Source: Bacteroidota bacterium (GTDB taxonomy: Bacteria > Bacteroidota > Bacteroidia > Chitinophagales > Chitinophagaceae). Taken from it: DNA of 64,000 nt. Location of the stretch: contig CANKWR010000003.1 of NCBI GenBank assembly GCA_947487525.1, positions 1-64,000 on the forward strand, written 5' to 3'. The notes beneath the pieces were generated by a model. It was not told where the DNA came from. It was given only the letters and a program-made list of their open reading frames with translations, and searched no databases. The position numbers and the translations under genes are program-made. This document shows, in pieces, positions 30,756-36,152 of the stretch (within the stretch, counting starts at the first letter, position 1; every line of letters begins with the position of its first letter).

Positions 30756-30938
30756 ATGAAAAAAGTATTCGCAATTTTCGCTATCGCTGCATTAACTGCT
30801 TGTGGTGGTGCTTCAACTGAAGCAAAAACTGACACTGCTGCTACACCGGTAGACACTGCTTCTACATCTGTAGACACTGCTGCTAAAGCTTTAGATACTG
30901 CTGCTAAAGCGGTTGATACTGCTGCTAAGAAGAAGTAA
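30756..30938 (+). CDS. Small alanine-rich heptad-repeat lipoprotein
   Basis: 60 aa; lipobox LTAC; tandem (V/L)DTAAKA-type heptads; C-terminal KKK. Confidence 0.75.
   Translation: MKKVFAIFAIAALTACGGASTEAKTDTAATPVDTASTSVDTAAKALDTAAKAVDTAAKKK
30850..30935 (+). repeat. Imperfect 21-nt tandem repeat encoding heptads
   Basis: GTAGACACTGCTTCTACATCT / GTAGACACTGCTGCTAAAGCT / TTAGATACTGCTGCTAAAGCG / GTTGATACTGCTGCTAAGAAG. Confidence 0.8.
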
Positions 30939-31036
30939 TTAAACTTATTGGACTATTGGTCCTGAGTGGGGAAACCCATTCTAAAAGCTTGCCAACCAGT
31001 AGTTATCGAACAATTTTCATATGGCAAGCAATCGTT

Positions 31037-31068
31037 AAGCCGCCCTGTTTCAACAGGGGGGCTTTTTT
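31037..31068 (+). terminator. Intrinsic terminator downstream of the small lipoprotein gene
   Basis: AAGCCGCCCTG-TTTCAA-CAGGGGGGCTT then T-tract; one internal mismatch. Confidence 0.85.
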
Positions 31069-31116
31069 TATTTTGGGCCTTTTAAAGAATTTAAAGGCAA
31101 TGAAGATCTACACATC

Positions 31117-31136
31117 AGATGCATGCGCATCTTTTT
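31117..31136 (+). terminator. Second terminator-like hairpin
   Basis: AGATGC-ATGC-GCATCT followed by TTTT. Confidence 0.5.
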
Positions 31137-31141
31137 AAATT

Positions 31142-31166
31142 CAAAGTCCCTGGGGGACTTTGTTTT
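31142..31166 (+). terminator. Third terminator-like hairpin
   Basis: CAAAGTCCC-TGG-GGGACTTTG followed by TTTT. Confidence 0.6.
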
Positions 31167-31297
31167 CCTTATGCTAGGTCTTTCTTCTTCAAATTTAAAT
31201 GAGCATAATAAAAACCTCTTTGCATCATATATACGAATAATTGTTAGTAAAATGTAAAAAACTTTGCTGTTTTAGCCTAAAATAGGGGTTTTTAGCC

Positions 31298-31305
31298 TAT
31301 ATTTG
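31298..31305 (+). promoter_or_regulatory. Putative Bacteroidota -7 promoter element of the aromatic leader/pheA operon
   Basis: TATATTTG matches TAnnTTTG, 7 nt before the leader ATG; no clear -33 element. Confidence 0.55.
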
Positions 31306-31312
31306 TGCTACG

Positions 31313-31396
31313 ATGAAAGCAAATAGCAACTGGTTTTACTTTTTCTTTTATTTCTACTTTAATCAAAGTAGCCGGGTAGTATTTGTAACAGCATAA
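31313..31396 (+). CDS. Aromatic amino acid (Phe/Tyr) attenuator leader peptide MKANSNWFYFFFYFYFNQSSRVVFVTA
   Basis: ATG AAA GCA AAT AGC AAC TGG TTT TAC TTT TTC TTT TAT TTC TAC TTT ... GCA TAA; ten consecutive aromatic codons just upstream of an intrinsic terminator and pheA. Confidence 0.9.
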   Translation: MKANSNWFYFFFYFYFNQSSRVVFVTA

Positions 31397-31446
31397 ACGA
31401 AATAACTAAATATACCATCCCGGCCTAAACAGCCGGGATTTTTTTT
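31354..31446 (+). promoter_or_regulatory. Transcription attenuator: leader hairpin, antiterminator arms and terminator
   Basis: Hairpin CTACTTT-aatc-AAAGTAG (31354-31371). Antiterminator GCCGGG (31371-31376) with CCCGGC (31419-31424), plus GTAT (31379-31382) with ATAC (31412-31415). Terminator ATCCCGGC-CTAAACA-GCCGGGAT + T-tract (31417-31446). Confidence 0.85.
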
Positions 31447-31449
31447 GAC

Positions 31450-32289
31450 ATGATGAACAAAAAAGTGACGATACAAGGATATGAGGGTAGTTTCCACCAA
31501 GTGGCAGCAAGGCAGTTTTTTGGCAAAACGGTCAAAGTGATTACTTGTGATACGTTTAGGGAAGTGGTGAAAATAGGGGCAGATCCTACACAATCGGATG
31601 GGGCAGTGATGGCGATAGAAAACTCTATTGCCGGAAGTATTTTGCCTAATTACAATTTATTGCAAAAAAGCAATTTAAAAGTGATAGGGGAAGTGTACTT
31701 ATCAATTAGTCAAAACTTAATGGCGAATCCTGGCGTAAAACTTTCGGACATCAAGGAAGTGCATAGCCACCCAATGGCAATTTTACAATGTTTGGATTAT
31801 TTGGAAGAACATCATTTCAAATTAGTAGAGTCAGAAGATACCGCATTAAGTGCAAAATTGGTACATCAACATAAAATCAAACATACTGCAGCTATTGCTA
31901 GTAAGTTGGCAGCACAGTTGTATAATTTGGAAATTATTGCTCCTGATATTCATACGTTGAAAAATAATATCACCCGCTTTTTAATATTAGTGCCAGCGAA
32001 AGCAAACGTAAATGTGGAAGACGCAAATAAAGCATCTATCTACTTTCAAACAGATCACTCTAAAGGGATTCTTTCCAAGGTATTGGCAACCATTGCAAAG
32101 GGTGGAGTGAACTTAAGCAAACTTCAAAGTATGCCTATTCCAGGGAGTACTTTTAAGTATGGATTTTATTTGGATTTAGAATTTGAAAATAATAAACAAA
32201 TTAAAAAAGTATTGGAGGCTGTCAATGACATGACCAATAGTTTCAAAGTTTTTGGATTGTATAAAAAAGGTAAAGTGGTAAAAGGCTAA
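31450..32289 (+). CDS. pheA: Prephenate dehydratase with ACT domain
   Basis: IQGYEGSFHQVAARQFFG, AIENSIAGSILPNYNLL, NNITRFLIL, ACT SIYFQTDHSKGILSKVLATIAKGGVNLSKLQSMPI. Confidence 0.93.
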   Translation: MMNKKVTIQGYEGSFHQVAARQFFGKTVKVITCDTFREVVKIGADPTQSDGAVMAIENSIAGSILPNYNLLQKSNLKVIGEVYLSISQNLMANPGVKLSDIKEVHSHPMAILQCLDYLEEHHFKLVESEDTALSAKLVHQHKIKHTAAIASKLAAQLYNLEIIAPDIHTLKNNITRFLILVPAKANVNVEDANKASIYFQTDHSKGILSKVLATIAKGGVNLSKLQSMPIPGSTFKYGFYLDLEFENNKQIKKVLEAVNDMTNSFKVFGLYKKGKVVKG

Positions 32290-32291
32290 TT

Positions 32292-33455
32292 ATGAACCTA
32301 ACATTATCAAATAGATTAGATGGGATTGGTGAATATTATTTCGCTACCAAATTGCGTGAAATTGATGAACTCAATAAAGCAGGAAAGCAAATAATTAATT
32401 TGGGCATTGGAAGTCCCGATTTGCCTCCGCATCCATCTGTGCTAGCTACTTTAAATGAAGAAGCTGCAAAAGAAAATGTACACGGTTATCAATCCTATAA
32501 GGGCTCTCCAGTTTTGAGAGAAGCTATTGCCGAGTGGTATAAAAAGTATTATCATGTTGATAATATTAATCCAGCAACAGAAGTGCTTCCATTACTCGGG
32601 AGCAAGGAAGGGATCATGCATATTTGTATGACCTATTTAAATGAAGGTGATCAGGTGTTAATTCCAAACCCGGGTTATCCTACCTACACAAGCGCAGTTA
32701 AATTAGCAGGGGGCACTCCGCTATACTATGAGTTGACTGCCGAAAACAATTGGGCGCCTGACTTTGAAAATCTAGAAAAATCAGATTTATCAAAAGTGAA
32801 ATTGATGTGGGTGAACTATCCACACATGCCTACAGGTCAAATGCCAACTAAAGCACTCTTTGAAAAATTAGTAGCATTTGGTAAGCAGCATCAAATATTA
32901 ATTTGTCACGACAATCCTTATGCATTCATCTTGAATGATCAACCTGAAAGTTTATTAGCAGTAGAAGGAGCAAAGGAAGTGGTGATTGAATTAAACTCTT
33001 TAAGCAAAAGCCAAAACATGGCAGGTTGGAGAGTAGGTATGTTGATTGCTGCCGAAGAAAGAGTCAACGAAGTATTAAGATTTAAATCCAATATGGATAG
33101 TGGGATGTTTTTACCTGTGCAATTAGCAGCGGCAAAAGCATTAAGCTTAACTAAATCTTGGTATGATTCAGTAAATCAAGTTTATACCGAACGTCGTGAA
33201 AAAGTGTATGAATTATTAGACACATTAGGTTGTGCTTATTCAACACAACAAGTAGGGATGTTTGTTTGGGCTAAAATTCCAGCCACATATAAAGATGGAT
33301 ATGCATTAAGCGATAAGGTATTGTATGATGCGAATGTCTTTATTACACCAGGTGGTATTTTTGGTTCTGCAGGTAATAATTACATCCGTGTGAGCTTATG
33401 CAGTTCAATGGAGAAATTTAATGAAGCAATTAAAAGAGTGAAAGCATGCGTTTAG
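32292..33455 (+). CDS. PLP-dependent class I/II aminotransferase, probably aromatic
   Basis: NLGIGSPDLPPHPSV, PNPGYPTYTSAV, ELNSLSKSQNMAGWRVG (PLP lysine); operon position between pheA and tyrA. Confidence 0.9.
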   Translation: MNLTLSNRLDGIGEYYFATKLREIDELNKAGKQIINLGIGSPDLPPHPSVLATLNEEAAKENVHGYQSYKGSPVLREAIAEWYKKYYHVDNINPATEVLPLLGSKEGIMHICMTYLNEGDQVLIPNPGYPTYTSAVKLAGGTPLYYELTAENNWAPDFENLEKSDLSKVKLMWVNYPHMPTGQMPTKALFEKLVAFGKQHQILICHDNPYAFILNDQPESLLAVEGAKEVVIELNSLSKSQNMAGWRVGMLIAAEERVNEVLRFKSNMDSGMFLPVQLAAAKALSLTKSWYDSVNQVYTERREKVYELLDTLGCAYSTQQVGMFVWAKIPATYKDGYALSDKVLYDANVFITPGGIFGSAGNNYIRVSLCSSMEKFNEAIKRVKACV

Positions 33456-34285
33456 CAGTCATTGGTATTGGTTTAATGGGAGGTTCATTGGCATTGTCAT
33501 TGAAAAAAAAAGGATTTATATCCCATGTAATTGGCGTGGACAATAATCCCGACCACCAAGCCGAGGCATTGCGATTGGGTATTGTAGATGAAATTAGGAC
33601 GCTTACAGAAGCCGTAAAATTATCTGACATCATTGCCATTGCAACGCCAGTAAATATTGCTGAAAAACTATTGCCTTCGGTTTTAGATTTAGTTGACCAA
33701 CAAATCGTTTTTGATTTAGGATCCACCAAAGAAGCAGTTGCGCAGATAGCCAGTGCGCATGCTAAAAAAGGAAGATTTGTTCCTACACATCCAATGTGGG
33801 GAACTGAGTTTAGTGGTCCTAGTGCTGCACAAAGCGATGCTTTTGAAAACAAAGCAACGGTAATATGCAATATGGAACAAGTGGATGCAGATGCGCTATC
33901 AACAGTAGTGCGATTGTATGAAACCTTGGGAATGCATATTGTTTCCATGAATGCTACTAAGCATGACATTCATGTGGCTTATGTGAGTCATATCTCACAT
34001 ATCACTTCTTTTGCATTGGCGAATACCGTGTTGGAGAAGGAAAGAGAATCGGATAATATATTTGAGTTGGCGAGTGGTGGTTTTGACAGTACGGTGCGTT
34101 TGGCAAAGTCCAATGCAGCAACCTGGGTGCCCATCTTTATGCAAAACAAAGAAAATGTATTAGACGTTTTAAATGAGCATATCACGCAGCTTAAAAAATT
34201 CAAGTCTTGTTTGGAAAAAGAAAACTTTGAATATTTAGCTGAATTGATTGAAAATGCAAATGGGATCACAAGAATCTTAAAATAA
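33446..34285 (+). CDS. tyrA: Prephenate dehydrogenase
   Basis: AVIGIGLMGGSLALSLKKKG, FDLGSTKEAV, THPMWGTEFSGPSAA; overlaps the preceding ORF by 10 nt. Confidence 0.9.
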   Translation: MRLAVIGIGLMGGSLALSLKKKGFISHVIGVDNNPDHQAEALRLGIVDEIRTLTEAVKLSDIIAIATPVNIAEKLLPSVLDLVDQQIVFDLGSTKEAVAQIASAHAKKGRFVPTHPMWGTEFSGPSAAQSDAFENKATVICNMEQVDADALSTVVRLYETLGMHIVSMNATKHDIHVAYVSHISHITSFALANTVLEKERESDNIFELASGGFDSTVRLAKSNAATWVPIFMQNKENVLDVLNEHITQLKKFKSCLEKENFEYLAELIENANGITRILK

Positions 34286-34319: not shown

Positions 34320-36152
34320 ATGAAGAAAACAGAAGAGATGGATACAAAAAATGATTTAATAGAAGCCGTAAAGACAAAAAAGACTTTTGCGGAATTAGGG
34401 GTGAACGAACAATTGGTAAAATCAGTTACCGAATTAGGCTATACCCATGCAACTGAAATTCAAGAGCGTTCTATTCCGGTATTAATTAGCGGAACAAAGG
34501 ATTTTATTGGACTAGCGCAAACAGGTACTGGTAAAACAGCCGCTTTTGGTTTGCCATTAATTCAATTAATTAAAACAGCCGATAAGCATCCTCAAGCATT
34601 AGTGGTTTGTCCAACACGTGAATTGTGTATGCAAATTGTAAACGAAATTAACTTGTTTAAAAAACATGTTGCTGGCGTACAAGTATTAGCAGTATACGGT
34701 GGCACCTCTATTGGAATGCAAATTAGAGATTTGAAAAGAGGCGTACAAATTATTGTAGCTACACCAGGTCGTTTAATTGACTTAATTGAGCGTAAGGCAA
34801 TTAACCTCGAGCAAATTGAATATGTAGTATTGGATGAGGCAGATGAAATGTTGAACATGGGATTCCAAGAAGACATTGAATTTATCTTAAAGAATACGCC
34901 TAATCGTGAAAGTATTTGGTTATTTAGTGCAACGATGCCAACTGAAATTAGAAAAGTAAGCAAGCGTTACATGAAAGAGCCAGTGGAAGTAACCATTGGG
35001 AAAGTAAATGCAACCAATAAAAGTATTGATCACCAATATTATGTTACCTCGGCGCAATATCGTTATGAAACTTTAAAGAGAATCATTGACTTTAACCCAG
35101 GTATTTATGGTATTATTTTTACACGTACCAAAGCCGATGCACAAGATGTTTCAGCCCGTTTAACACGTGAGGGTTATGATATTGATGCCATCCATGGTGA
35201 CTTGACACAACAACAACGTGATAGAGTCATGGGACAATTTAGAGATAAGACTTTACAATTGTTAATTGCAACGGACGTTGCTGCAAGAGGTATTGACGTA
35301 AAAGGAATTACACACGTCATTAACTACGAATTACCAGACGACGTGGAAGTGTATACGCACCGAAGTGGTCGTACTGGTCGTGCAGGTAGCCAAGGTATTT
35401 GTATTTCTATTGTCCATGCAAGAGAATCTTACCGTTTACGCCAAATTGAGAATATCAATAAAAGTACTTTCCATAAATTAGATATCCCAAGTGGTAAGGA
35501 TGTTTGTAGAAAACAATTCTTCCATGTAATGGATAAATTAATGTCAACTGACGTAAGCCACGGTGATTATGAAACTTATGTACCTATGCTTGCAGAGAAA
35601 TTTGCAGACATGACGAAAGAGGAAATTTTAAAGCGCGTAGCTGCTTTGGAGTTTAACCGTTTCTTGGCGTATTATGAAAATGCAGCGGACTTAAATATCC
35701 GTGCTGCTGAAAAAGGCCGTCGTGATGTAGGTGGTATGCAAGATCGCAACAGAGAAAGAGGACGCAACGAATATTCAGATCGCAGAAGCGGTGGAGATAG
35801 ATCTAATGAAAGATCCAATGATCGTGGTGACCGTGGCGATAGAGGGGATGGTCGTGGCCGCACAGCGAATCGTGCTAGCGCTGGAGCTACCCGTTTATTT
35901 GTAAACCTGGGCACGAAAGATGGTTTTTATAAAGCTAGTTTCTTACAATTTGTTTTAGACATGAGCGACTTGAAAAAAGAAGTGTTGGGTAAAATTGATA
36001 TGAGAGACATGAATAGCTGGATTGAAATTGAATCAGGATCTGCTAAAAAAATGATTAATGCCTTAGATGGCAAAAGTTATAAAGGACGTCGTATTCGTAT
36101 GAACGATGCAGACAGCGGTGGTCCGAGAGGGTTTAATAATAACGAAGGATAA
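34320..36152 (+). CDS. DEAD-box RNA helicase with RNA-binding C-terminus
   Basis: AQTGTGKTAAFGLP, VLDEADEMLNMGF, SATMP, HRSGRTGRAG, R/G/D-rich linker, DbpA-like C-terminal domain. Confidence 0.95.
   Translation: MKKTEEMDTKNDLIEAVKTKKTFAELGVNEQLVKSVTELGYTHATEIQERSIPVLISGTKDFIGLAQTGTGKTAAFGLPLIQLIKTADKHPQALVVCPTRELCMQIVNEINLFKKHVAGVQVLAVYGGTSIGMQIRDLKRGVQIIVATPGRLIDLIERKAINLEQIEYVVLDEADEMLNMGFQEDIEFILKNTPNRESIWLFSATMPTEIRKVSKRYMKEPVEVTIGKVNATNKSIDHQYYVTSAQYRYETLKRIIDFNPGIYGIIFTRTKADAQDVSARLTREGYDIDAIHGDLTQQQRDRVMGQFRDKTLQLLIATDVAARGIDVKGITHVINYELPDDVEVYTHRSGRTGRAGSQGICISIVHARESYRLRQIENINKSTFHKLDIPSGKDVCRKQFFHVMDKLMSTDVSHGDYETYVPMLAEKFADMTKEEILKRVAALEFNRFLAYYENAADLNIRAAEKGRRDVGGMQDRNRERGRNEYSDRRSGGDRSNERSNDRGDRGDRGDGRGRTANRASAGATRLFVNLGTKDGFYKASFLQFVLDMSDLKKEVLGKIDMRDMNSWIEIESGSAKKMINALDGKSYKGRRIRMNDADSGGPRGFNNNEG

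Follow-up and report, generated by a model that had tools for sequence, protein, structure and literature searches.

The leader region of the pheA-aminotransferase-tyrA operon

The stretch of DNA analysed in this work (64,000 nucleotides, hereafter the window) belongs to a 2.0-Mb draft genome; the public genomes nearest to it come from the Sediminibacterium group of the Chitinophagaceae. An operon of three genes is located on its plus strand: pheA (31450..32289), which codes for a prephenate dehydratase with a PDT domain (PF00800, 2.1e-54) and a weak match to the ACT domain; a class I/II aminotransferase gene (32292..33455; Aminotran_1_2, PF00155, 3.9e-61); and tyrA (33446..34285), coding for a prephenate dehydrogenase with PDH_N and PDH_C domains (PF02153 and PF20463). 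These Pfam assignments agree with the identities given to the three genes in the preliminary description, which had been made from the sequence letters and a list of open reading frames. The order pheA-aminotransferase-tyrA is retained in nearly all the related loci.

Reading of the sequence upstream of pheA has located a leader ORF of 27 codons (31313..31396, plus strand) that encodes the peptide MKANSNWFYFFFYFYFNQSSRVVFVTA, and its codons are kept in 47 close loci. The codons with a putative regulatory role, W F Y F F F Y F Y F (31331..31360, plus strand), constitute the run of ten aromatic residues (one Trp, six Phe and three Tyr) on which the preliminary description was built, and this run was found exactly where it had been placed. 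The second-longest aromatic run among the ORFs of the window comprises five residues, and six was the maximum in 60 Markov sequences preserving dinucleotide frequencies. The aromatic leader ORF is far beyond chance. Its stop codon lies 20 nt before an intrinsic terminator and 53 nt before the ATG of pheA (31450), the same distances as first reported. The terminator, ATCCCGGC-CTAAACA-GCCGGGAT followed by a T run (31417..31446, plus strand; hairpin 31417-31439), was recovered between the leader ORF and pheA by a terminator scan, which revealed six sites within 30800-31700 versus 0.8 expected.

The start codon of pheA is situated 3 nt past the U run of the terminator (31440-31452), and it is also nearby in L023, L027 and L035; the terminator hairpin might additionally hide the pheA initiation region. 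Farther upstream, a 60-codon ORF (30756-30938, plus strand) begins like a lipoprotein (MKKVFAIFAIAALTACGG) and contains Ala/Thr/Asp repeats, and two terminator-like hairpins (31043-31058 and 31142-31162) are found 3' of it.

Conservation and alternative pairings of the leader

A recognisable aromatic leader was present in 76 of the 80 related pheA loci fetched (77 loci including the window), and three of the four loci in which it was not recognised have less than 200 nt of upstream sequence. In all 77 leader-bearing loci a terminator is present, and its left arm pairs with the RNA located just 3' of the aromatic codons. In a sample covering the class Bacteroidia, an ATG-initiated ORF with at least five aromatic residues out of ten was found in 33 of 40 pheA upstream regions, and in 28 of 40 with at least seven out of ten; shuffled upstream regions reach these values in 7.8% and 0.1% of the cases, respectively. 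The leader ORF was accompanied by a detected terminator in 32 of the 40 regions, and no such leader was found before 7 of the 40 pheA genes of this class-wide sample. The preliminary description had proposed to look in relatives, upstream of pheA, for the aromatic run and for the alternative stems. Both are conserved, so its hypothesis passed this check.

Each of the 60 leaders tallied for the order and class samples has both Phe and Tyr codons, and Trp occurs in only 17 of them; Phe and Tyr therefore constitute the constant signal and the Trp of the window does not. Codons in the aromatic run show almost no variation among the 47 close loci, synonymous sites included, and TTC TTT TAT TTC TAC TTT is invariant. 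The mean identity at third positions was 94% in the leaders versus about 50-70% in pheA, in in-register comparisons from which loci with a pheA identity of about 0.28-0.30 were left out as one-codon-offset artefacts. The local hairpin described below accounts only for the last codons among the near-invariant synonymous positions at 31331-31360, and a need to avoid long U runs, or codon-specific decoding, may contribute to this invariance.

Two arms of a putative antiterminator were delimited by pairing and covariation across loci. The 5' arm (GCCGGG plus GTATTTG, 31371..31385, plus strand) is located within the leader ORF, and the 3' arm (TAAATATAC-CAT-CCCGGC, 31407..31424, plus strand) overlaps the left arm of the terminator. 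The pairing of GCCGGG (31371-31376) with CCCGGC (31419-31424), extended by GTAT/ATAC and mutually exclusive with the terminator, had been noticed before, and it has been confirmed here and shown to covary. Compensatory variants of this majority form are AACCGGG/CCCGGTT (L060), GCGGGG/CCCCGC (L072) and ACCGGG/CCCGGT (L063 and L079). When arms were permuted against the terminators of other lineages, the mean energy of the arm-terminator duplex was -16.5 kcal/mol versus -19.4 kcal/mol for the cognate duplexes, a value reached in none of 10000 permutations. In 30 class-wide loci outside the family, the corresponding means were -18.3 (cognate) and -12.5 (permuted), with 0/5000 permutations. The terminator stem was paired in 99.5% of the alignment cells, with 15 double-change cells. 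Pair counts were obtained from a separate genafpair alignment, as the default MAFFT alignment misplaces the arm of the Lacibacter group by two columns.

The local hairpin CTACTTT-aatc-AAAGTAG (31354..31371, plus strand), located where the aromatic run ends, had also been pointed out from the sequence, and it is real: 93% of the cells are paired over 70 distinct rows, with 20 double-change cells, a result matched by none of 500 shuffles, and slid controls were paired at 36-59%. This hairpin shares a single base with the antiterminator arm and thus does not look like the arm-sequestering 1:2 helix of classical attenuators. A function as a pause or timing hairpin rather than as a protector is possible. 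Another candidate pairing, TTATTTC/GAAATAA, between the aromatic codons and the spacer, was dropped after inspection by eye, as it is not maintained in relatives.

Ribosome position, transcription start and proposed mechanism

The effect of ribosome position was analysed with a folding model in which the ribosome was assumed to cover 15 nt counted from the first base of its P site and only the RNA made before the right arm of the terminator was folded. For the window, the antiterminator had a probability of 1.0 as long as the codon in the A site of the stalled ribosome was no further than the last aromatic one; this fell to 0.58 at the next codon and to 0 beyond. Averaged over the 77 loci, the probability was 1.00 for stalls on aromatic codons and 0.00 for a ribosome at the stop codon. 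The expectation that a stall at the aromatic codons frees the antiterminator arm, and that advance to the stop codon covers it, is borne out in this model, from which it follows that the aromatic run ends where the footprint starts covering the arm. Equilibrium partition-function folding of the full leader, carried out at every ribosome position, did not show the antiterminator switch in the window, where the terminator always wins. Given that the terminator is favoured at equilibrium for all stall positions, we infer that the choice must be kinetic. Whole-leader equilibrium folding is uninformative for kinetic control, and it was replaced by the folding of the RNA preceding the right arm.

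A promoter element overlooked in the preliminary description, the predicted -7 element TATATTTG (31298..31305, plus strand; consensus TAnnTTTG), precedes the leader ATG by 7 nt, a spacing that is kept in relatives. The Bacteroidota element TAnnTTTG occupies positions -12 to -5 in Flavobacterium (PMC9723704; PMC6847099). This spacing predicts a +1 at about 31310-31311 and a 5' end located 2-3 nt before the leader ATG, so the leader transcript is probably leaderless. A direct repeat, TTTTAGCCTA, is present twice at a distance of 20 nt (31270-31299), with its second copy overlapping the -7 element, and relatives carry TAGCCTA...TAGGCTA palindromes; the repeat is possibly an operator or an upstream promoter element.

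The attenuator could also be carried by an ordinary leadered mRNA, with the true transcription start further upstream and a coincidental TAnnTTTG match. Within the phylum, few mRNAs are leaderless (5.5% of those of F. psychrophilum, PMC9723704; about 3.7% with 5' UTRs below 10 nt in B. thetaiotaomicron), leaders longer than 10 nt were found in 87% of the predicted transcripts of F. johnsoniae (PMC6847099), the distance from TAnnTTTG to the leader is mostly 15-35 nt outside Chitinophagaceae, and the start site given here is a prediction from sequence. However, 71 of 76 loci have TAnnTTTG (with no more than one mismatch) 4-8 nt 5' of the leader start, and four of the remaining five carry, as read from their sequences, an in-frame start 4-7 nt from the element. 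Only 22 of the 365 other ATGs of the same regions have the element at that spacing, and a 4-9 nt spacing is also found for the his leaders listed and most trp leaders (17 nt for the trp leader of the window's own genome). A leadered mRNA is therefore considered improbable, although it is the alternative that deserves the most weight.

All these data make it very probable that the region is a ribosome-mediated transcription attenuator of the pheA-aminotransferase-tyrA operon, as originally suggested, and conservation, covariation, geometry and operon context support this reading. RNA polymerase would start at about 31310, giving a nearly leaderless mRNA on whose 5' AUG the ribosome would initiate. 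Under a shortage of charged tRNA for Phe or for Tyr, the ribosome would stall in codons 31331-31360, and the arm 31371-31385 would pair with 31407-31424 before the right arm of the terminator exists. The antiterminator thus formed would block the terminator, allowing the polymerase to continue into pheA. With plentiful charged tRNAs for both Phe and Tyr, the ribosome would cover the arm inside the ORF and the terminator (31417-31446) would form. Coupling between transcription and translation in Bacteroidota is presupposed in this scheme and has been assumed. A dual Phe/Tyr input is plausible but unproven; the AroR leader of Corynebacterium, with its mixed F-Y-F motif, is reported to respond to Phe and not to Tyr (PMC11802643).

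Alternatively, the leader ORF would encode a small hydrophobic peptide with a function of its own, exerted in trans or in the membrane; the terminator would then end the short mRNA of this peptide, and only a fraction of transcripts would read into pheA. The conservation of the peptide is very high in close relatives, and a trans-acting leader peptide, peTrpL, is known from S. meliloti (PMC7298713). The C-terminal half, however, varies in frame and sequence among lineages while the RNA arm is kept: the arm is read as Ser-Arg-Val in the window, Lys-Pro-Gly in the Lacibacter and Terrimonas types and Ser-Pro-Gly in L070, which indicates that the RNA, not the peptide, is selected. In addition, the leader ORF ranges from 13 to 40 codons, three loci stop just before the arm, and at greater distance the aromatic content is conserved and the sequence is not, all of which makes the functional peptide very unlikely. 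In those three loci (L073, L074 and L076) an in-frame TGA closes the ORF right before the antiterminator arm, which is retained together with the codons that follow it.

Related leaders and known attenuation systems

The genome to which the window belongs contains two further leaders of the same type: a Trp leader, MIKLNNMWWWHTNSVGVL, before trpE (L175:377-431), with a terminator after it, and a His leader, MNLNNPIHHHLLSKG, before hisG (L161:1223-1270), also followed by a terminator. Relatives of the same genus likewise have Trp and His leaders with terminators before trpE and hisG. A covariance model built from the aromatic leader gave matches in 59 of 80 family genomes, and it also caught leaders rich in Ile/Val before ilvE-ilvD in two genomes, with two more found in congeners. 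The genome of the window yielded no ilv leader; the flank examined there may stop short of the site. The Ile/Val-rich leaders (IIVIVIIII, for example), with their terminators, were seen in L191, L192, L198 and L207, before ilvE-ilvD or in ilvD loci.

Attenuation controlled by a metabolite or a protein (a riboswitch, a T-box or an RNA-binding protein), with an incidental ORF, has also been considered, as riboswitches and T-boxes likewise use terminator/antiterminator pairs. It is weakened by the aromatic codons of the 33 class-wide regions, by the matching runs of Trp, His and Ile/Val codons before trp, his and ilv genes, and by the Rfam search, which gave no family at gathering score on the leader or in the related loci; this explanation is even less likely than a functional peptide. 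The Phe_leader family (RF01859) scored 31.5 bits on the leader, below its gathering score of 55, and the T-box covariance model had no match at the leader. Other Rfam near-hits (Ref84, Hrs12 and RsaJ) were far under their cut-offs. No Pfam or NCBIfam family was found for the leader peptide. The Bacteroid-trp motif (RF01692), a cis-regulatory motif of Bacteroidetes listed in PMC2864571 whose name suggests an association with trp genes, had no match in the window, the related loci or the trp leader loci tested. Least likely of all, the combination of an unrelated upstream-gene terminator with a chance ORF, which the small plus-strand lipoprotein-like ORF ending at 30938 might suggest, is already refuted by conservation. 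That ORF has its own terminator-like site (31043-31058) with the leader promoter lying between, a run of ten aromatics was never reached in shuffles, and the leader ORF covaries with the terminator.

The attenuator shares with the E. coli pheL-pheA system (RF01859), a classical case of ribosome-mediated attenuation (PMC11802643), a leader ORF with Phe codons, a terminator and an antiterminator before pheA, and ribosome stalling as the sensor. It differs in its mixed Phe/Tyr codons, the pheA-tyrA operon, the predicted leaderless start and the arm inside the ORF, and no arm-sequestering helix has been found. A mixed Phe-Tyr-Phe leader before an aromatic pathway operon is also known in Corynebacterium glutamicum (aroR, aroF operon; PMC11802643), an actinobacterium in which a single F-Y-F motif controls DAHP synthase. 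Leaderless leader-peptide mRNAs take part in the attenuators of Sinorhizobium meliloti trpL and Streptomyces lividans leu, trp and ilv (PMC7298713; PMC8079986), which belong to other phyla and concern other amino acids. In the phylum itself, the F. psychrophilum transcriptome study (PMC9723704) reports strong indications of attenuation by leader peptides upstream of amino acid operons and conserved structured 5' elements without Rfam hits at pheA and hisG of Flavobacteriaceae; its main-text passages are confined to Flavobacteriaceae and give no peptide, alternative pairing or covariation for the pheA element. No experimental test of the switch was found in the open-access literature. The mechanism class is known; this system is a variant of it, marked by class-wide conservation, by an arm embedded in the ORF for which no sequestering helix was found, and by a predicted leaderless design. 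Lopatovskaya and coworkers, cited in PMC4833913, reportedly described attenuation across bacteria in 2010, and prior predictions of attenuators in Bacteroidetes may exist.

The comparative evidence defines an attenuator class that is conserved in much of Bacteroidia and absent from Rfam, Pfam and NCBIfam, which suggests that several amino acid operons of Bacteroidia are controlled by the translation of tiny leaders. To our knowledge, the mRNAs of Bacteroidota lack Shine-Dalgarno sequences. A joint reading of these observations, put forward tentatively and with more doubt than confidence, is that Chitinophagaceae (and, in a leadered form, much of Bacteroidia) would regulate operons for Phe/Tyr, Trp, His and Ile/Val through a set of attenuators based on leaderless or short-leadered mRNAs free of Shine-Dalgarno sequences, whose 3' codons would double as antiterminator arm and whose default state when translation fails would be ON without a protector helix; the pheA-tyrA leader would act as an OR-gate opening on shortage of Phe or Tyr. 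If true, this would require coupling of transcription and translation in Bacteroidota. As ribosome-mediated attenuation needs a ribosome close behind the polymerase, the switch would be a natural reporter for such coupling and also, in a phylum without Shine-Dalgarno sequences, for initiation on leaderless messages, and the mixed Phe/Tyr run offers a direct test of two-signal attenuation.

The genes beyond tyrA code, according to Pfam, for a DEAD-box helicase, a DAHP synthase/chorismate mutase and a 3-dehydroquinate synthase. The helicase gene (34320-36152 in the window) separates tyrA from the DAHP synthase gene in the Sediminibacterium group; in the Terrimonas-like loci (L067, L071, L072, L077 and L078) it lies 5' of pheA, and the DAHP synthase gene comes next after tyrA. 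Genome G341 presents a natural split of the pheA-tyrA operon, with pheA and tyrA on different contigs (L189 and L190), each of them with its own aromatic leader and terminator.
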